From Gemmatimonadota bacterium (lineage in GTDB: Bacteria > Gemmatimonadota > Gemmatimonadetes > Gemmatimonadales > Gemmatimonadaceae), in the NCBI GenBank assembly GCA_023249375.1, contig JAHFCT010000037.1, positions 1 through 32,756 of the forward strand: a stretch of 32,756 bases of DNA. The letters run 5' to 3'. This document shows positions 24,648 to 32,756 of the stretch, in pieces. Every line of letters starts with the position of its first letter. Position 1 is the first letter of the stretch. The position numbers and the translations under genes were made by a program. The notes under the pieces are model-generated. The model searched no databases. It had not been told where the DNA came from and worked only from the letters and a program-made list of their open reading frames with translations.

Positions 24648-25820
24648 TCAAGGGATCGTTACCATGCTGGTCGACCGCAGCGCCGAGAGCGACGGGGTGC
24701 AGTCCTGCGCCGCGACCGCGTAGTAGTATGACTGTCCGCTGCTCACCGAGCCGTCCGTAAACGTGTAGCTCGCGCTCCCGGCCGGCACCGTGACGTACGG
24801 GTCGCCCCAGTCCGTGGTGGACGAGAGGCGACGCCAGATGACGTAGCGCTGCACGTCCAACTCGCCGGCGTTTTCGTCAATGGACCGCACGAACGTGACG
24901 CGCACCACGGGGGTGACGCCGTCCACGGCAAACCCGTTGGCGGCCGCCGGCGTCGCCGTGAAGATGGGCAGGTCGCCGCAGCTCTTCGTGTTCACGAGGC
25001 CCACATTGGGGAGGCGGATGAGTCGCGACACGGCACGGAATCGTTCGTTCGTGCCCAGGCGCCCGTTGCTGACGGTGAAGCTCACCTTGACCGCGCGCAC
25101 GCTGTCGATGCGCGCCAGCGTGCCCGTGTCGGAGATCGAAAGGTGAATCGGTACGCTGTGGCGCCACGGCAGGCTCGCCTGCGGCACGGTGTCCAGCGAC
25201 TGCGCGCCGGCCGACGTGGTGCGCACCTTGTAGTACTGGAAAAATGGCGTTCCGGTCGTGCGCAGGATGTTCGTCGCCACTACTTCGGGCGCGAGGTTGT
25301 TGACGCGACGGAAAAGCAGGTAGTCGCCGGTGCGCGACGTCGACGAGTCGACGCGGAAGTAGAACAGGATCGTCTCGGAGTTGCTGTTCACGCCGCCCGA
25401 ATAGTAGTTCGAATCCGGGTAGGCCGTCGTCGTATACGGAATGGTGATTTGCCCCGTGCGTTTCATTGCCTGCACGGCGCTGTCCGGGGCGTCCGGATTG
25501 TAGTACACCGCCTCCACATCACCGGCCGTGTTCGTCCAGTAGTTGGCGTTGACCATCAAGACGCTGTCCGAGACGTACACGACCTGCGGCTGCATGTCCG
25601 GCGCGCCGGCGCCGGAGGTGCGCAGGTCTTTCTCCAGTTCGTTCAGCGCGAAGCGGCCGTTTTGGTACATCGCGATGCGCTCGCTGCCCAGCTGGAAGCT
25701 GCGACTCTCCGCGCTCAGCACCTTGAGGGTCGCCGCCATCACGATGGAAAAGATCAGGAGCGCCGCCAGCATTTCGACCAGCGTCATGCCGCGACGAGTG
25801 CGTCCGCGAGAGAGGGTCAT
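24648..25820 (-). CDS. PilW-like minor prepilin with C-terminal FN3-like domain
   Basis: 390 residues. The leader RTRRG is followed by MTLVEMLAALLIFSIVMA, a class III signal with Gly at -1 and Glu at +5. The next part (NGRFALNELEKDLRTSGAG) is typical of PilW/GspJ. From about residue 290 the sequence looks like a fibronectin type III module: VTFVRSIDENAGELDVQRYV, IWRRLSSTTDWGDP, and SYTFTDGSVSSGQSYYYAVA, the last matching the YxYxVxA end of FN3 repeats. This C-terminal module is unusual in PilW and may be exposed at the pilus tip. The start overlaps the preceding gene's stop (ATGA at 25817). The stop is 14 bases from the next ATG. Confidence 0.85.
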   Translation of the reverse strand: MTLSRGRTRRGMTLVEMLAALLIFSIVMAATLKVLSAESRSFQLGSERIAMYQNGRFALNELEKDLRTSGAGAPDMQPQVVYVSDSVLMVNANYWTNTAGDVEAVYYNPDAPDSAVQAMKRTGQITIPYTTTAYPDSNYYSGGVNSNSETILFYFRVDSSTSRTGDYLLFRRVNNLAPEVVATNILRTTGTPFFQYYKVRTTSAGAQSLDTVPQASLPWRHSVPIHLSISDTGTLARIDSVRAVKVSFTVSNGRLGTNERFRAVSRLIRLPNVGLVNTKSCGDLPIFTATPAAANGFAVDGVTPVVRVTFVRSIDENAGELDVQRYVIWRRLSSTTDWGDPYVTVPAGSASYTFTDGSVSSGQSYYYAVAAQDCTPSLSALRSTSMVTIP

Positions 25821-26191
25821 GGGGCCGCCACGCTCACCGTACGGGTGATCGCGGTCAGGATGCCTGTCCCGGTCACGGTCACGGTGAACTTCTTATAGTC
25901 TTGCCCCGACGTCGTCGTGCGCGTCACGGTCGTGACGCGGCGGAAGCCGGGGTAGGACGGGATGCTTGTCTCCGTCTTGCCGTACGCCGTGTCGAGCGCG
26001 GCGTAGTTGGGATCGGTGCGAATCTGATCGGTGCGGTCGGAGGCGAGCTGAATCGCCGACTGCTCGCGATCGCTCAAGGCCGTGACGTGCACGGTCTTTC
26101 CGGTCATCGTGATGAGCGAGACGATGACGACCAGAAGGATGGCCATCGCGAGGACGACCTCGGCTAGGGTAAATCCGGCGCGTGATTTCAT
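25817..26191 (-). CDS. PilV-like minor prepilin
   Basis: 124 residues. MKSRAG is followed by FTLAEVVLAMAILLVVIVSLI, a clean class III prepilin signal with Gly at -1 and Glu at +5. The rest (ALSDREQSAIQLASDRTDQIR, then short beta strands ending in TRTVSVAAP) matches PilV/GspI in size and layout. The ATG at 26191-26189 lies two bases past the stop of the FimT-like gene, and the stop overlaps the PilW-like start, so all four pilin genes are tightly coupled. Prepilin peptidase and assembly ATPases are not in the window. Confidence 0.88.
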   Translation of the reverse strand: MKSRAGFTLAEVVLAMAILLVVIVSLITMTGKTVHVTALSDREQSAIQLASDRTDQIRTDPNYAALDTAYGKTETSIPSYPGFRRVTTVTRTTTSGQDYKKFTVTVTGTGILTAITRTVSVAAP

Positions 26192-26193
26192 CG

Positions 26194-26823
26194 TCAGAAG
26201 AGTTTGACCCACCCGTTGGCGCCATAGCGGAACCACGAGGCGCGCCCCGTGGCCCGCTCGACAGACACAGCCCGCGCATCCGTAGCGCGGACGTTGCTCC
26301 GCTGTGCCTGCACGGACGTTACATAGAAGCCACCCACCTCGCTCGCGCTGCCGTCTCGATGGAAGACGAGGGCCGGGCGGCTGCTGATCCGCTTGACGAT
26401 CACGATCGAACTGCTCCCAAAGGCCATCGCCGGAGCCGGGCCCCGGCCAAAGACGATCGCCTCGCCGAGCGGGACGAAGCGCACGTGCTCTCCCGCGTCG
26501 ATGATGGCGTCGTTATCGCGGTCGGAGTGAATGCGCAGCCGGTTCGACGACGAGTCGAAGAGCACGATGACGTCGTGCTGCTCCGTGACGGCTTCGCGTT
26601 GGGCGGCCAGGATGGTGGTGCCGAGCATTTGCACCGCGCCATTCACGCGGAAGCGCGTCGGGTCAATCTTGGGAGCCGCGTACTTCACGACGATGCCGAG
26701 GATGACCACCACCATCAGCAACTCGATGAGCGTGAACGCGGCGCGGCGCCGTCGCGTCGCGCGCCGTCGCGTCGTGCGCTGCCCAGCGTCCTCTGCACTC
26801 TTGACTGTCGTCCGGTTCAACAT
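26194..26823 (-). CDS. FimT/GspH-like minor prepilin with Ala at the cleavage site
   Basis: 209 residues. A long Arg-rich leader (about 29 residues) precedes FTLIELLMVVVILGIVV, the N-methylated pilin helix with Glu at +5. The residue just before Phe is Ala (RRRAAFTLIE) instead of the near-invariant Gly. The rest follows GspH/FimT: a helix with QMLGTTILAAQREAVTEQHDV, then beta strands. The ATG at 26823 has no good ribosome site, and no better start was found between it and the leader's Arg block. It is the first gene of the minor-pilin operon; upstream is a region rich in GTCAC/GTGAC dyads. Confidence 0.84.
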   Translation of the reverse strand: MLNRTTVKSAEDAGQRTTRRRATRRRRAAFTLIELLMVVVILGIVVKYAAPKIDPTRFRVNGAVQMLGTTILAAQREAVTEQHDVIVLFDSSSNRLRIHSDRDNDAIIDAGEHVRFVPLGEAIVFGRGPAPAMAFGSSSIVIVKRISSRPALVFHRDGSASEVGGFYVTSVQAQRSNVRATDARAVSVERATGRASWFRYGANGWVKLF

Positions 26824-27911: not shown

Positions 27912-29801
27912 ATGTCAGCCGCTTCCGCCACCGCCGCTCCGGCGCCGCCGAAGGTTCTCCGCGTCCCCGAGCACACCGTAGAAATCGTCTCCGACTCGGG
28001 CGAAGGCGCCCAGAAGTGCGGACAGATCTTTGGCGCCGTCTCCGCCAAGATGGGCAACGGCGTCTGGACCGTCGAGCTCATTCCGGCAGAAATCCAGCCG
28101 CCACCGCGGGTCCCCGAAGGGGCCAGCGGCAATCGCATTCGTCTGGGAGAGCATGCGGTCACCAACTGGGGCGACCGCACCAACCTCGTGATCGCCTTCA
28201 ACGAGCAGGTGCTGCTCGCGCGGCACCGCGTGGATTCGCTCGCCGACGACGCCGTCATCCTCATCGAGGACAAGTGGGCGCGCAGCGAAGACGCCGACAT
28301 CGTCGCCCAGTGGGACGCCGCGATGAAGGAGCTCTCGGGCAAGCACTACCGGATCATTCCGGTGGCGATGGAGGACCAGTGCCTCACCATCGTCGACAAC
28401 CCGAAGAAGGGCAAGAACATGTTCGCCCTGGGCCTGCTGGCCCGCGTGTACGGGCGCGACATGGAGCGCATCAAGGAGCAGATCGCCCACGCCTTCCGCA
28501 AGAAGAGCGAAGAGGTCTATAACTCCAACGTCGCGCTGCTCGAACTCGGCTACCACTGGGCCGAAGACAACATCGACTTCCGCGTCGAGATTCCCACGCA
28601 CGCCGCCGACAAGCCGCTCGTCGTGATGAACGGCAACGAGGCCATCGGCATGGGCGCCATCGCCTCGGGGATGGAACTCTGCGCGATGTACCCGATCACG
28701 CCGGCCACGTCGGTCTCGCACTACCTGTCCGAGGTGTTCGAGAAGTTCGGCGGCATCGTGCATCAGGCCGAGGACGAAATCGCGGCCTGCGGCGTGGCCA
28801 TCGGCGCCTCGTACGCCGGCAAAGTCGCATTCACCATCACGTCAGGCCCCGGCATGGCGCTCAAGACCGAGTTCCTCGGCCTCGCCGTCATGACCGAAAC
28901 GCCGCTCGTGCTCGTGAACGTGCAGCGTGGCGGGCCGAGCACCGGACTGCCCACCAAGGTGGAGCAGTCGGACATGCTGGCCGCGCTCTACGGGCAGACC
29001 GGCGACTCGCCGCACATCGTGATGGCGCCGGCGACCATCGAAGAGTGCTTCCACATCATGATCACCGCGCGCCGCCTCGCCGAGACGTTCCGCACCTTGG
29101 TGATGGTGCTGACCGACGCCAACCTCGCGACCGGCGTCTCGCCGTATCCCAAGCCCACGCTCGACGAAGCGTGGCAGGCGGCACCGCTTGATCTGGCGCC
29201 TGTCAAGGAAGGGCAGAAGGCCTACGCCTGGAACAAGGACACGGGGCTTAGCGATCGCATTATCCCCGGGCGTCCGGGCGGCATGTTCACGCTCACCGGC
29301 CTCTCGCACGACGAAGGCTCCAAGGTGGCGTACAGCTCGGGCATCCATCAGCACTCGTCGGCGATGCGTAGTCGCAAGATCGCGGTGCTGCAAAGCCTGC
29401 TGGTACCGCCGACCGTGTACGGTGAAGAGAGCGGCGACCTGCTGGTCGTCGGCTGGGGCAGCACGAAGGGCGCCATTGAAGAAGCGGTGGATCGCGCGCG
29501 CAAGGAGGGCCTCAAGGTCTCCTCGCTGCACCTGCGTTTCCTCTCGCCGCTCGAGCCGGGCCTGAAGGACATCTTCAAGAAGTTCAAGAAGGTCATGACC
29601 GTCGAGATCAACTACTCCGACGAGATCGGCGACCCCTACATCAACGAAGAGAACCGCCGTCGCGGCCAGCTCTCGATTCTGCTGCGCAACGCGACGCTGG
29701 TGGATGTGGATTGCTGGGGCCGCGTGCCGGGTGAGCCGCTGCGCCCGATGTCCATTGTCGACGCCATTCGCGGCCGCGTGCCGCGTGGAGGTGCCAAGTG
29801 A
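27912..29801 (+). CDS. korA: 2-oxoglutarate (2-oxoacid):ferredoxin oxidoreductase, fused gamma/alpha subunit
   Basis: 629 residues. The N-terminal third (about 20-210) is the gamma-type domain (SDSGEGAQKCGQIFGAVSAK, NLVIAFNEQVL). It is fused to the alpha pyrimidine-binding domain (from about 235: LVVMNGNEAIGMGAIASGM, CAMYPITPATSVSHYLSE, ITSGPGMALKTEFLGLAVM, NVQRGGPSTGLPTKVEQSD) and a C-terminal domain II (GDLLVVGWGSTKGAIEEAV). With KorB it oxidises a 2-oxoacid, most likely 2-oxoglutarate, to the acyl-CoA with reduction of ferredoxin, replacing or supplementing the dehydrogenase complex in the TCA cycle. ATG at 27912 with GAGGTG upstream. The stop overlaps the beta-subunit start (GTGA). Confidence 0.93.
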   Translation: MSAASATAAPAPPKVLRVPEHTVEIVSDSGEGAQKCGQIFGAVSAKMGNGVWTVELIPAEIQPPPRVPEGASGNRIRLGEHAVTNWGDRTNLVIAFNEQVLLARHRVDSLADDAVILIEDKWARSEDADIVAQWDAAMKELSGKHYRIIPVAMEDQCLTIVDNPKKGKNMFALGLLARVYGRDMERIKEQIAHAFRKKSEEVYNSNVALLELGYHWAEDNIDFRVEIPTHAADKPLVVMNGNEAIGMGAIASGMELCAMYPITPATSVSHYLSEVFEKFGGIVHQAEDEIAACGVAIGASYAGKVAFTITSGPGMALKTEFLGLAVMTETPLVLVNVQRGGPSTGLPTKVEQSDMLAALYGQTGDSPHIVMAPATIEECFHIMITARRLAETFRTLVMVLTDANLATGVSPYPKPTLDEAWQAAPLDLAPVKEGQKAYAWNKDTGLSDRIIPGRPGGMFTLTGLSHDEGSKVAYSSGIHQHSSAMRSRKIAVLQSLLVPPTVYGEESGDLLVVGWGSTKGAIEEAVDRARKEGLKVSSLHLRFLSPLEPGLKDIFKKFKKVMTVEINYSDEIGDPYINEENRRRGQLSILLRNATLVDVDCWGRVPGEPLRPMSIVDAIRGRVPRGGAK

Positions 29802-30751
29802 GCTACACCTGCGGCTTGCTTCCCGTCCTTGATCAGCACGAGGACCACCACTACGAGATGTCGGAGTACGAGGGCGCGAAGGCGCGCTGGTGCCCCGGCT
29901 GCGGCGACCACTCGATCCTCACCGCGGTGCAGCGCCTGCTGGCCGCGGAACAGCTCGTTCCCGAGCAGACCATGATGGTCTCGGGCATCGGCTGCTCGAG
30001 CCGTCTGCCGCACTACATGAAGACGTACGGATTCCACGGCCTGCACGGCCGCGCGTTGCCCGTCGCGACGGGCATCAAGCTGCACCGGCCGGAACTCACG
30101 GTCTTCGTGACCATGGGCGACGGCGACTGCACGTCCATTGGCGCGGGGCACTGGGTGCACGCCATGCGCTACAACGTGGACATGGTGGCGATGATGCTCG
30201 ACAACGGCATCTACGGCCTCACCAAGAACCAGACGTCACCCACCACGCCGCAGGGCTTCAAGAGCAACACGCAGCCCTACGGGTCGATCCTTCCGCCGCT
30301 CAATCCGCTCGAAGTGGCGCTCGGCATCACCAACGCTTCGTTCGTCGCGCAGACCGCCGAGTGGGCGCCGTCGCATCTCTATGCGACGCTGCGCGCGGCC
30401 TATAAGCACAAGGGCTTCAGTTTCGTGCGCATTCTGCAACGCTGCCCCGTGTACACGCCGGCGATCTACCAAAAGGCGGTGCAGGATCCGGCGCGCATTC
30501 AACTGCTTGTCCACGACGACGGCGTCGTGACGCCCGACCTCGACAAGATCTACCAGTCGCAGCTGCACCATGATCCGCGCGACCTCGCGGCCGCGCGCGC
30601 CCTGGCGGAACAGACCGAGACCATCAAGCTCGGTGTGTTCTACCGGGATCCCTCCAAGCCCCGATACGAAGAGACGCGCCGCGTCGCTCCCCGCACGCCG
30701 GCTGAACGCGTCGCTTTGCTCGAAAAGGAGTTCGCCCGCTATGCCGTCTGA
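29798..30751 (+). CDS. korB: 2-oxoglutarate (2-oxoacid):ferredoxin oxidoreductase, beta subunit
   Basis: 317 residues. The thiamine diphosphate/Mg site is GDGDCTSIGAGHWVHAMRYN followed by DNGIYGLTKNQ. Four Cys sit where the single [4Fe-4S] cluster of two-subunit enzymes is bound: two in WCPGCGDH, one in SGIGCSSR and one in ILQRCPVYTP. It starts at GTG 29798 overlapping korA, and its stop lies inside the next gene. The region after the core (about 230-317) is longer and charged, with a late YEETRR segment. Substrate preference between 2-oxoglutarate and other 2-oxoacids cannot be settled by eye. Confidence 0.93.
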   Translation: MSYTCGLLPVLDQHEDHHYEMSEYEGAKARWCPGCGDHSILTAVQRLLAAEQLVPEQTMMVSGIGCSSRLPHYMKTYGFHGLHGRALPVATGIKLHRPELTVFVTMGDGDCTSIGAGHWVHAMRYNVDMVAMMLDNGIYGLTKNQTSPTTPQGFKSNTQPYGSILPPLNPLEVALGITNASFVAQTAEWAPSHLYATLRAAYKHKGFSFVRILQRCPVYTPAIYQKAVQDPARIQLLVHDDGVVTPDLDKIYQSQLHHDPRDLAAARALAEQTETIKLGVFYRDPSKPRYEETRRVAPRTPAERVALLEKEFARYAV

Positions 30752-31745
30752 TCCGCGCGTTGCCCAGGCGCTGGCTGCGCTGGCGCAACCCATTGCCGAG
30801 TTCCGCGCCGCGGTGCAGGGCGCGCTGGCGCAGGCTGACGCTTTCCTGGCGGCGCAGACGGCGGATGCCGTCACGCAGGCCGCGAGCGCTGCCAAGTCGC
30901 TCGGCGTCTTTGGCTCGCATCTGGACGCGGCCAAGTTTGCCGCGATGTTCCCGAGCGTGGCCAAGGCCGACAAGGCCTCGCAGGCCGCGCTCACCAAGGC
31001 CGCCAAGATTCTGCGCAGCGTCGCCACGCAGGGCGACGACATGGCGCTCGCCAAGGTGAGCGACGGGCGCAAGCTCGGCGCCACCATCGACGCCGCGCTC
31101 GCCGGTGCGGGGCAGGCGTTCGGTGCCATCATCATCACCGAACTGGTGCGCGGCGGGCGCTACAAGGCCGCCGAGCACGAGCGCCTGCTCGACCCGAGCG
31201 AGTTCCGCGCGTGGAACAACGCCGAACGCCGCTTTGCGCCGCCGCTGGTTGTTGAAGTGGCCGGCGCCGACTTGCATGCCGGCGCGTTGCTCGATTTCGC
31301 CGACGGGCGCGAAAAGATCGTGCTGGTCGTCACGGGTGACGCTCCTCCCGCCGCGCTCGTTCGCTGCATCACGCCGGGTACCTTCGTGCTGCAGACGGTG
31401 GACGGCACGGGACTCGACCGCCTCGTCGGCTACGAGGGTCCGGCCATCGCCGCCTTCCTCCCCGAAGGCGCCGCGACGTTCATGCACGATCCGACCGCCG
31501 GCAAGGAACCCTGGCAGCGGCTCACCGTGCCCTTCCTTCCGACCACGCCGTTCAAGGCCGTCGGCGGATTCAGCGCGTGGCAGATGGAGCAGGATGTGAA
31601 GATGCTGGCCGATCTCGCCCGCACGCCGTTTGCGGTGCCGGCCGTCCCGGGCGCCAAGGGCGCACCGGCCATCGGCGCTGGCGACGCGGTGGATCGCATC
31701 GCGTCGTGGCTGCTCGGGACATCGGGCATCGCGGGCAACGGCTGA
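30741..31745 (+). CDS. Unrecognised 334-residue protein embedded in the ferredoxin-reductase operon
   Basis: I do not recognise this protein. Residues 1-105 are Ala-rich and helical (many AxxxA and AKxA steps), with no signal peptide or membrane segment. Residues about 115-290 look like a mixed alpha/beta domain (GAIIITELVRGGRYKAAEHE, PPLVVEVAGADLHAGALLDF, EKIVLVVTGDAPPAALVRC, GTFVLQTVDGTGLDRLVGYE). There is a single Cys, so it is not an iron-sulfur protein. The ATG at 30741 lies inside the end of korB (11-base overlap), and RnfB follows after 15 bases, so it is made with the ferredoxin-linked enzymes. A structural, assembly or regulatory role for that system is possible; I cannot assign one. 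Confidence 0.8.
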   Translation: MPSDPRVAQALAALAQPIAEFRAAVQGALAQADAFLAAQTADAVTQAASAAKSLGVFGSHLDAAKFAAMFPSVAKADKASQAALTKAAKILRSVATQGDDMALAKVSDGRKLGATIDAALAGAGQAFGAIIITELVRGGRYKAAEHERLLDPSEFRAWNNAERRFAPPLVVEVAGADLHAGALLDFADGREKIVLVVTGDAPPAALVRCITPGTFVLQTVDGTGLDRLVGYEGPAIAAFLPEGAATFMHDPTAGKEPWQRLTVPFLPTTPFKAVGGFSAWQMEQDVKMLADLARTPFAVPAVPGAKGAPAIGAGDAVDRIASWLLGTSGIAGNG

Positions 31746-31760
31746 GCGCGCGGACTTCCG

Positions 31761-32603
31761 ATGATCATCCTTCAGGCAATCCTGATCCTCGGCGGCACCG
31801 GTCTGGTGTTCGCCATTCTCATCGCCGCCGCCAACAAGAAGCTCAAGGTCTGGGAAGACCCGCGCATTGACGTGGTGGCCGCCATGCTGCCGTCCGCAAA
31901 CTGCGGCGCCTGCGGCCTGCCGGGCTGCCGCGCGTTTGCGGAAAAGGCGGTGGTGGGAGAAATCCAGCCGGCGAAGTGCACTGTGTCGAACGCCGAGCGC
32001 ATTGGTGAGATCGCGCACTTTCTAGGTGTCGATGCGGGCGAAGCCATCAAGCGCGTCGCACGTCTGCAGTGCGCCGGCGGCACCAACGTGGCCACGCAAG
32101 CCGCCGAGTATCGCGGCCTCGGCACCTGCCTGGCCGCCGCGGCGGTCGCTGGCGGTGGCAAGGGCTGCTCGTGGGGCTGCCTCGGCCTCGCCGACTGCGA
32201 GCGTGCCTGCACCTTCGGCGCCATTTCGATGAACGCCGACGGACTTCCCGTGGTGGACGTGGAGAAGTGCACGGCGTGCAACGACTGCGTGGTGGCCTGT
32301 CCCAAGGACCTGTTCGTGCTCCAGCTGCTGGATCATCCACTGCTGGTGCAGTGCAAGAACCTCGTGAATGGAGACGGGGTGCTGGAGTCGTGCACCGTGG
32401 CGTGCACGACCTGTGGCAAGTGCGTGCTGGACGCCGCGCCGGGGCTCATCAGCGTGGCGAGTGGTGTGGCAGTCATCAACTACGACAAGATCGCCGAAGC
32501 CGAGGAGAGCGCTGTGGAGCGCTGCCCGACCGGAGCGATTATCTGGCTACGCGGCGCTCAGTTTGCGCGCGTGCCGGCCCTCAGCAGTGCGGAGGCAGCA
32601 TGA
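31761..32603 (+). CDS. RnfB-like membrane-anchored iron-sulfur protein
   Basis: 280 residues. An N-terminal helix (IILQAILILGGTGLVFAILIAAA) anchors it. A PF04060-type cluster motif follows (C48, C51, C56, C73: NCGACGLPGC and PAKC). Then come two ferredoxin-like groups, CSWGCLGLADCERAC and CTACNDCVVACP, and a further Cys-rich tail (CTVACTTCGKC and a final ERCPTGAI). This is the RnfB layout with an extended C-terminus. In Rnf complexes RnfB accepts electrons from ferredoxin; here no other Rnf gene is present, so it may be a stand-alone ferredoxin acceptor beside the oxidoreductases. ATG at 31761. The stop overlaps the next start (ATGA at 32600). Confidence 0.88.
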   Translation: MIILQAILILGGTGLVFAILIAAANKKLKVWEDPRIDVVAAMLPSANCGACGLPGCRAFAEKAVVGEIQPAKCTVSNAERIGEIAHFLGVDAGEAIKRVARLQCAGGTNVATQAAEYRGLGTCLAAAAVAGGGKGCSWGCLGLADCERACTFGAISMNADGLPVVDVEKCTACNDCVVACPKDLFVLQLLDHPLLVQCKNLVNGDGVLESCTVACTTCGKCVLDAAPGLISVASGVAVINYDKIAEAEESAVERCPTGAIIWLRGAQFARVPALSSAEAA

Positions 32604-32756
32604 GTGCGATGAAGACGGGCGATGCCGGCAACGCCAAGTTCCCGGGCAGTCGTCAGGCGCTTGATGGATCATTTGCGGTGGTCGCGATGGAAACGGCGGG
32701 CAGCGAAGCCGCCGGCGCCTATCCGATTACGCCGTCCACGCAGATGGATCTGCCAT
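32600..32756 (+). CDS. Start of a second 2-oxoacid (probably pyruvate):ferredoxin oxidoreductase, cut by window edge
   Basis: Fifty-two codons before the right edge. The ATG at 32600 overlaps the RnfB-like stop. After a short leader the sequence reads DGSFAVVAMETAGSEAAGAYPITPSTQMDLP. YPITPST is the signature of the alpha (pyrimidine-binding) domain of pyruvate:ferredoxin oxidoreductases, and the preceding ETAGSEAAG resembles the single-chain NifJ-type entry better than KorA's GNEAIGMG. It is the fifth gene of the operon. Pyruvate is the likely substrate from context, but the gene is too incomplete to be sure. Confidence 0.78.
   Translation, partial: MSAMKTGDAGNAKFPGSRQALDGSFAVVAMETAGSEAAGAYPITPSTQMDLP

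Follow-up and report, generated by a model that had tools for sequence, protein, structure and literature searches.

Why a gene whose product matches no Pfam family is held between a subunit of a 2-oxoacid oxidoreductase and a subunit of the Rnf complex is the question raised by the end of contig JAHFCT010000037.1 of a Gemmatimonadota bacterium (GenBank assembly GCA_023249375.1), taken here as the window over its whole length of 32,756 nucleotides. The gene, called X in the following (30,741–31,745, plus strand), encodes 334 residues followed by a stop codon, with no internal stop; it overlaps korB by 11 bases (ATGCCGTCTGA, 30,741–30,751, plus strand) and ends at 31,745, leaving a 15-base spacer before rnfB, which starts at 31,761. 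The frame, the overlap and the spacer had been pointed out in an earlier sequence-only reading and were borne out, with KorB ending at 30,751. The same reading found no recognised motif in the protein and proposed it as a candidate subunit, chaperone or regulator of the ferredoxin oxidoreductase. On the basis of profile comparisons, X is very probably a degenerate paralogue of domain VI, i.e. of the thiamin diphosphate (ThDP)-binding, beta part, of pyruvate:ferredoxin oxidoreductase (PFOR).

As to family models, the absence of a recognised motif holds for Pfam: X matched none of its families, and 28 homologues of X returned four families only, each in a single homologue and at E 0.14 or worse. 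In NCBIfam, none of the Rnf subunit models matched at E 10 and only PilP (TIGR03021) was listed, an identity that was dropped, its 20.2 bits falling short of the 34.65 cut-off. Searches of the sequences in the PDB with phmmer and hmmsearch gave nothing significant, the best match (E 0.12) being a designed repeat protein. The absence of relatives did not survive profile comparison, in which X appears as a degenerate paralogue of a PFOR domain; the family match is to a related enzyme, and not to an unrelated known family.

For these comparisons, alignments were built from sequences with a query coverage of at least 75%, identical rows being dropped, so as to retain 65 of 99 sequences for X, 60 of 93 for KorB, 50 of 63 for KorA, 59 of 94 for RnfB and 43 of 91 for PFOR, the latter being the giant one-chain PFOR encoded downstream of rnfB. 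When the X profile (65 sequences) was compared with that of the giant PFOR (43 sequences) by hhalign, an E-value of 1e-4 was obtained and only residues 1152–1369, which lie within domain VI, were aligned; the controls (KorA, KorB, RnfB and reversed X) gave E-values between 0.063 and 0.67. With the giant PFOR divided into six pieces, domain VI scored 47.2 against X (E 2.6e-5) and the other five pieces 12.1–28.0, while KorB, a true homologue of this domain, scored 28.8 against it. KorB itself was considered as the direct parent of X and rejected as its nearest source, the hhalign E-value of 0.063 being weaker than that of the giant's domain VI.

When 95 whole genomes were searched with the alignment of X, eight full-length X proteins and two other sequences were returned, the latter at E-values of 1.8e-4 and 7.4e-4 per genome; over the whole set, fewer than 0.1 such match would be expected by chance. 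Both of these other sequences are canonical, split PFOR beta subunits, encoded beside a PFOR alpha subunit and equipped with the cofactor and cysteine motifs, and they match residues 244–328 of X, with the C-terminal helix of X facing the sequence ADRLANWRLLQ near the end of the PFOR beta subunit. The two split subunits match the model of the giant PFOR up to position 1144 and again from position 1199; since the intervening piece, which they lack, is shared by X and the giant PFOR, the latter appears to be the nearest source of X. In a further search of eight named genomes, four of which are also among the 95, the sole extra match was a fragment of a giant PFOR.

Structure prediction, which had been proposed together with sensitive profile searches in the sequence-only reading, supplied the first lead. 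AlphaFold2 models of X were obtained from 28 and 46 sequences (pLDDT 85.1 and 90.3, respectively) and, in VIA-align, residues 807–1170 of PFOR, which correspond to domain VI, came at the top with Z-scores up to 8.4, followed by beta subunits of 2-oxoacid:ferredoxin oxidoreductases (OFORs) and, then, by other ThDP enzymes. The models suggest that X probably keeps the fold of domain VI, the PP fold of ThDP enzymes. Several observations speak against the assignment and temper it: designed helical bundles tie with PFOR in VIA-align (7unj, Z 7.7 and 8.3); Foldseek, run with two models of X against the PDB, found nothing at E 0.001 or better; the hhalign E-values are those of single comparisons; and from the giant's side, with its domain VI as the query, X of a single genome (G113) was reached, at E 5.2e-4. 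The top rows of Foldseek, mostly semialdehyde dehydrogenases, were discarded as meaningless, with a TM-score of about 0.15 and a root-mean-square deviation near 20 or more. Because designed bundles tie and Foldseek returned nothing significant, the structural match alone decides nothing, and it was used as a lead only.

What X has lost with respect to PFOR is seen in its motifs. The NTGG motif of the cofactor loop is found in none of the 65 X homologues, and neither is CxxC; 19 of the 65 have no cysteine at all and none has more than three, in keeping with the earlier remark that X, which has one cysteine in the window, carries no cysteine cluster. A GDG string, counted irrespective of its place, occurs in 13 of the 65. 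In the giant PFOR, the cluster cysteines (CMGCG, STGCSS and TPC), GGDG and YSNTGG are kept in 41–43 of 43 sequences (GGDG in 42–43, the asparagine of YSNTGG in 41). In the hhalign alignment X is approximately 35 residues shorter than domain VI around the cofactor site, and its residues 166–199 (31,236–31,337, plus strand) are aligned with the 'CPPIVAMGGDGAMLDIGFQNLSRLLASGKPIRVVVLD' segment of PFOR, the YSNTGG loop that follows this segment being gone. To judge from these alignments, X has lost both the ThDP-binding loop and the proximal [4Fe-4S] cluster, and it is probably non-catalytic.

Other positions have been kept. Residues P167, P168, G189 and Q218 are found in all 65 sequences and W323 in 60 of them, the latter within a conserved C-terminal helix (D.VD.LA.WLL; residues 313–327, 31,677–31,721, plus strand), which is supported by AlphaFold2, column counts and HMMER, follows a low-confidence linker and aligns with the C-terminus of canonical PFOR beta subunits. 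No membrane helix or signal was seen by eye or in the secondary structure of the models, no dedicated predictor having been used. Such invariant residues, preserved despite the loss of the ThDP loop, could be taken to indicate that a new enzymatic or ligand-binding activity (e.g. sensing of coenzyme A or of a nucleotide) has arisen on the old fold, the place in the operon being a matter of history; however, X shows neither a recognised ligand motif nor a match to any family, the conservation of the C-terminal helix suits protein docking equally well, and we regard such an activity as very unlikely.

That X is a gene in its own right follows from its conservation. Among the 58 distinct loci where KorB could be measured, the 11-base overlap is found in 48 (84 of 99 before the removal of duplicates), and dN/dS, calculated with the NG86 method for ten pairs of congeneric sequences, is 0.16–0.27: X is under purifying selection and, in the light of these values and of the recurrent overlap, is no chance frame. 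Its distribution was followed by single-protein searches in two sets, each including the window's genome: of 41 related genomes 12 had a match, and of 298 drawn from the phylum, 58. KorA and the giant PFOR's ThDP domain served as further queries against the set of 298; among the matches listed, a close KorA (at least 56% identity) is present in 59 and a close giant PFOR (at least 59% identity) in 61, the genomes thus excluded reaching 39% at most, and 57 of the 58 X-positive genomes hold both. Counted within the 58 is the match in G142 (35% identity over residues 33–131, E 3.4e-4), which is probably spurious and whose locus shows none of the operon genes. Conversely, X is present in 57 of the 59 genomes with a close KorA among the matches listed; of the other two, one encodes a protein related to X and fused to a ferredoxin in its stead, and the other is cut by assembly gaps. 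That X belongs to no annotated family might suggest a functionless hitchhiker in the operon, but in the face of such retention and of the low dN/dS this explanation is scarcely credible.

A scan of named contigs in GTDB yielded 46 X loci, all 46 titled as metagenome-assembled genomes, most of which are labelled Gemmatimonadetes, Gemmatimonadota, Gemmatimonadales, Gemmatimonadaceae or Gemmatimonas. Other labels are Rokubacteria (four loci), Planctomycetota (two), Acidobacteria, Vicinamibacteria and Candidatus Benthicola (one each), and binning errors may lie behind single cases. In the phylum of one of the Rokubacteria genomes, full-length X was found in 8 of 95 genomes.

The genes around X are arranged in the order korA-korB-X-rnfB-PFOR-rnfC-rnfD-rnfG-rnfE-rnfA-apbE, with a variant in G103, where apbE is placed after rnfG and before rnfE. 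In a set of 60 distinct X loci, of which only those with room on the relevant side were counted for each neighbour, KorB is found upstream in 58 of 58 and KorA in 49 of 50, and downstream RnfB in 54 of 54, PFOR in 52 of 53 and RnfC in 34 of 38. The fixed place in the operon, which the sequence-only reading had put forward, is thereby confirmed, as is the conservation of korAB as gene neighbours: rather than lying mostly away from korAB, as that reading had allowed for, homologues of X have KorB beside them in every locus with upstream room. The misses concern RnfC (L043, L046 and L096), KorA (L044) and both PFOR and RnfC (L077), with stretches of N inside the operon in L043 and L044. Four genomes (G199, G213, G175 and G145; L108–L110, L043, L044 and L122) are assembled as single contigs but contain N gaps of 100 bases, in or beside the operon, by which it is cut into pieces that lie far apart. 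Their split operons are thus assembly joins, and the order of the pieces in these records is untrustworthy. In G284 and G008 the giant PFOR is cut at a contig edge. The exceptions that stand are G065, G182 and G030.

The earlier suggestion of a ferredoxin oxidoreductase subunit stands in so far as X is best read as having a role like that of a subunit; a subunit of Kor is only one option, beside a link to Rnf and a partner of the giant PFOR, because the neighbourhood is a whole operon of 2-oxoacid oxidoreductases and Rnf. The mechanism that we propose is the following. X, very probably derived from the ThDP-binding domain of PFOR with loss of the cofactor loop and the proximal [4Fe-4S] cluster, is co-encoded with KorB and probably translationally coupled to it through the 11-base overlap; it would bind a 2-oxoacid oxidoreductase, most likely KorAB, by the contacts that domain VI and its C-terminal helix make in ordinary enzymes, and would in this way position RnfB to take the electrons. 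According to PMC5020499, domain V is missing from two-subunit OFORs, and the pocket that this leaves, with domains III and VI on either side, can apparently take up an external ferredoxin; the helix at the C-terminus of domain VI extends across the partner subunit. No ferredoxin domain V was found in KorA or KorB in the Pfam scan, and, as KorAB has no such domain of its own, X together with RnfB would replace a diffusing ferredoxin. Our confidence is evenly divided on whether X is a non-catalytic pseudo-beta subunit that is bound to KorAB and places RnfB as the acceptor. The docking step itself, by which X would connect KorAB (perhaps PFOR) to RnfB, is a tentative proposal. Its furthest extension, in which X serves as the adaptor within a complex at the membrane where KorAB and the giant PFOR feed RnfB directly, and Rnf pumps without free ferredoxin, is doubtful.

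The electron-docking part of this proposal finds its main support in the genome G030 (INTERMEDIATE), which encodes a KorA 56% identical to that of the operon, KorB and, in the place of X, a protein of 672 residues (P0003; L115:588–2606, minus strand). The middle part of P0003 is 22–33% identical to domain VI of the giant PFORs and, by eye, has none of the GDG, YSNTGG and cluster-cysteine motifs, single cysteines remaining, while its C-terminal ferredoxin domain is 43–61% identical to the C-terminal domain of the giants: a dead PFOR domain VI joined to a ferredoxin domain, beside korAB. X and P0003 were aligned by hhalign with a score of 49.4 over 225 columns (residues 43–271 of X), as compared with a mean of 15.0, a standard deviation of 2.8 and a maximum of 26.2 for 400 control frames; the latter were drawn from the 566 of 707 long frames that remained after the removal of 141 with family matches, and mix real genes and shadow frames. 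G030, which is 98% complete, has no close giant PFOR and no RnfC above the cut-off. A dead domain VI that stands beside KorAB without a close giant PFOR or an RnfC above the cut-off, and carries its own ferredoxin, fits a role of X in mounting the electron acceptor on KorAB.

The same protein bears on two further explanations. X might be a regulatory pseudo-subunit that replaces either the catalytic domain VI of the giant PFOR or, in KorAB, the KorB subunit, giving rise to mixed dimers of lower or tuned activity: it resembles the giant's domain VI more closely than KorB does, may have kept the interface with domain I of that enzyme, and shares the operon with the giant PFOR. The korB overlap and the occurrence in G030 of the ferredoxin-fused relative with KorAB and no close giant PFOR point instead to KorAB as the partner, and an inhibitor steadily co-expressed with its target from one operon would be, in our judgement, unusual; we consider regulation of this kind unlikely. 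Alternatively, X could act as an assembly factor, which shields an exposed surface of the alpha subunit, or aids the loading of cofactors, until KorB or domain VI is ready to dock, and departs afterwards. Its likeness to domain VI would give it access to the same surface, its cofactor motifs are gone, and X is missing with the giant PFOR of G065 and with the second KorAB of G182; yet X matches no chaperone family in Pfam or NCBIfam, and the fusion of its relative to a ferredoxin suggests a place in electron transfer, so that an assembly role appears decidedly unlikely.

Against the docking of RnfB on KorAB by X a number of observations must be set. In HMMER the relation between X and P0003 is weak (best domain 4.9 bits), and the link rests on hhalign; the full dead domain of P0003 is found in one genome, G030, while G304 has the ferredoxin end alone; the giant PFOR of G065, although with a broken frame, has no X, and the second KorAB of G182, of the same clade, has none beside it, so that neither KorAB nor the giant PFOR is always accompanied by X. 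Furthermore, the co-occurrence in 57 of 58 genomes reflects linkage in one operon and is silent on the binding partner of X.

The other parts of the operon, namely KorAB, PFOR, Rnf and ApbE, are known ones. The gene korA (27,912–29,801, plus strand) encodes a 2-oxoacid:acceptor oxidoreductase alpha subunit of 629 residues, a gamma-alpha fusion with 538 bits against TIGR03710 (cut-off 482.75) and with POR_N, POR and PFOR_II in Pfam. It is followed, with a 4-base overlap and a GTG start, by korB (29,798–30,751, plus strand), which encodes the ThDP-binding beta subunit of 317 residues; this scores 253.2 bits with TIGR02177, slightly below the cut-off of 261.9, and its cluster cysteines, GDG and the asparagine of LDN are kept in 60 of 60 homologues. 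RnfB (280 residues; 31,761–32,603, plus strand) contains PF04060 and Fer4 domains and scores 202.8 bits with NF005504, below the equivalog cut-off, and 55.6 bits with TIGR01944, below 68.7. The giant PFOR gene starts at 32,600 (plus strand), with a 4-base ATGA overlap with rnfB, and is cut by the end of the contig at 32,756, after 157 bases, which kept the remainder of the operon out of view of the sequence-only reading. In the same genome (G000) its frame is open from the start of another contig, C30 (L135:1–10380), where rnfC, rnfD, rnfG, rnfE, rnfA and apbE follow: RnfC (522 bits), RnfD (300.4 bits) and RnfG (111.5 bits) are each above their TIGR cut-offs, RnfE is at its TIGR cut-off with 213.4 bits and above that of NF009070 with 228.8 bits, RnfA (209.8 bits) is below its cut-off of 229.3, and ApbE (123.3 bits) is below the equivalog cut-off of 498. 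ApbE proteins attach flavins. The window's PFOR frame ends with STQMDLP (32,740–32,756) where C30 reads STQMGEG (L135:50 onwards), a mismatch that may reflect an error at the contig end, affecting the final few bases of the window.

Of 12 genomes tested, 11 have an RnfC above its cut-off directly downstream of the giant PFOR, G030 being the exception, and the complete rnfCDGEA-apbE set after the giant PFOR was also found in L136–L142. The giant PFOR is of about 1,700 residues (e.g. L063:9858–14951), as compared with the 1,167 positions of the TIGR02176 model, and has a C-terminal Fer4_13 domain after an Ala/Pro-rich linker. A second, divergent group of giant PFORs, 35–36% identical over domain VI, is represented by L112, L113, L114 and L121 (G013, G079, G279 and G102), and korAB, X and rnf genes were not detected in the stretches taken. 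The giant PFOR of L111 (G065) is 73% identical to the operon type, its frame being broken somewhere from position 1045 to position 1071 of the model, with korAB, X and rnf genes absent from the 18 kb taken. In L119 (G182:C1:4545000–4560000), the KorA of the second KorAB is in two frames, and both X and RnfB are absent after it. Elsewhere in the window, two frames on the minus strand (25,817–26,823) have prepilin-like N-termini, GFTLAE and AFTLIE, from which we take them to be, probably, minor pilins or pseudopilins.

The assembly of two 2-oxoacid oxidoreductases, a dead PFOR-domain protein, six Rnf genes and an apbE-like gene, with overlaps between genes, suggests a dedicated route from 2-oxoacid oxidation to an ion pump. 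Should X be the adaptor of the complex considered above, a dead PFOR domain would couple dehydrogenase and pump and hold them together, and the oxidation of 2-oxoglutarate or pyruvate would drive ion pumping by Rnf without free ferredoxin; if X is the link, the direct feeding of Rnf by a dehydrogenase becomes testable with one gene, and X joins the cases in which a domain of an enzyme has been put to structural use. In any case, a meaning is given to a protein without a Pfam family. Neither a separate, degenerate PFOR-domain protein nor 2-oxoacid oxidoreductases in an rnf operon were found in searches of the open-access literature, preprints and most subscription papers being outside its scope, and the accessible text of a review on RNF/NQR (PMC12174285, 2025) and of PMC5020499, PMC3534657, PMC5317091, PMC4853749 and PMC7414866 contains no description of the operon or of X.

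Of the Rnf complex (RnfABCDGE), a ferredoxin:NAD+ oxidoreductase that oxidizes reduced ferredoxin (PMC12174285, accessible text), no subunit model matches X, which carries no cofactor motif but is encoded inside the rnf operon, beside rnfB. According to the accessible text of PMC3534657, the rnf operon of Melioribacter also contains extra genes, for a putative lipoprotein and a protein of unknown function, and 2-oxoacid oxidoreductase genes are not named there as part of it; the position of rnfB upstream of PFOR in the operon described here is, furthermore, unlike the orders rnfCDGEAB and rnfBCDGEA that are quoted in the same text. With respect to the beta parts of PFOR and OFOR enzymes (domain VI; e.g. 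6cin 811–1170, 5exd_F, 9bt4_C and KorB of 6n2n_B), X is homologous at the profile level in pieces that together span most of its length, including the C-terminal end, but lacks the ThDP/Mg loop and the [4Fe-4S] cysteines, and its gene is present in addition to neighbouring genes for a complete KorB and a PFOR. Its nearest relative among the proteins compared is the giant one-chain PFOR, in which POR_N, domain II, POR (gamma), Fer4, ThDP and C-terminal Fer4_13 domains are found in a single chain and in which, unlike in X, the motifs are intact.

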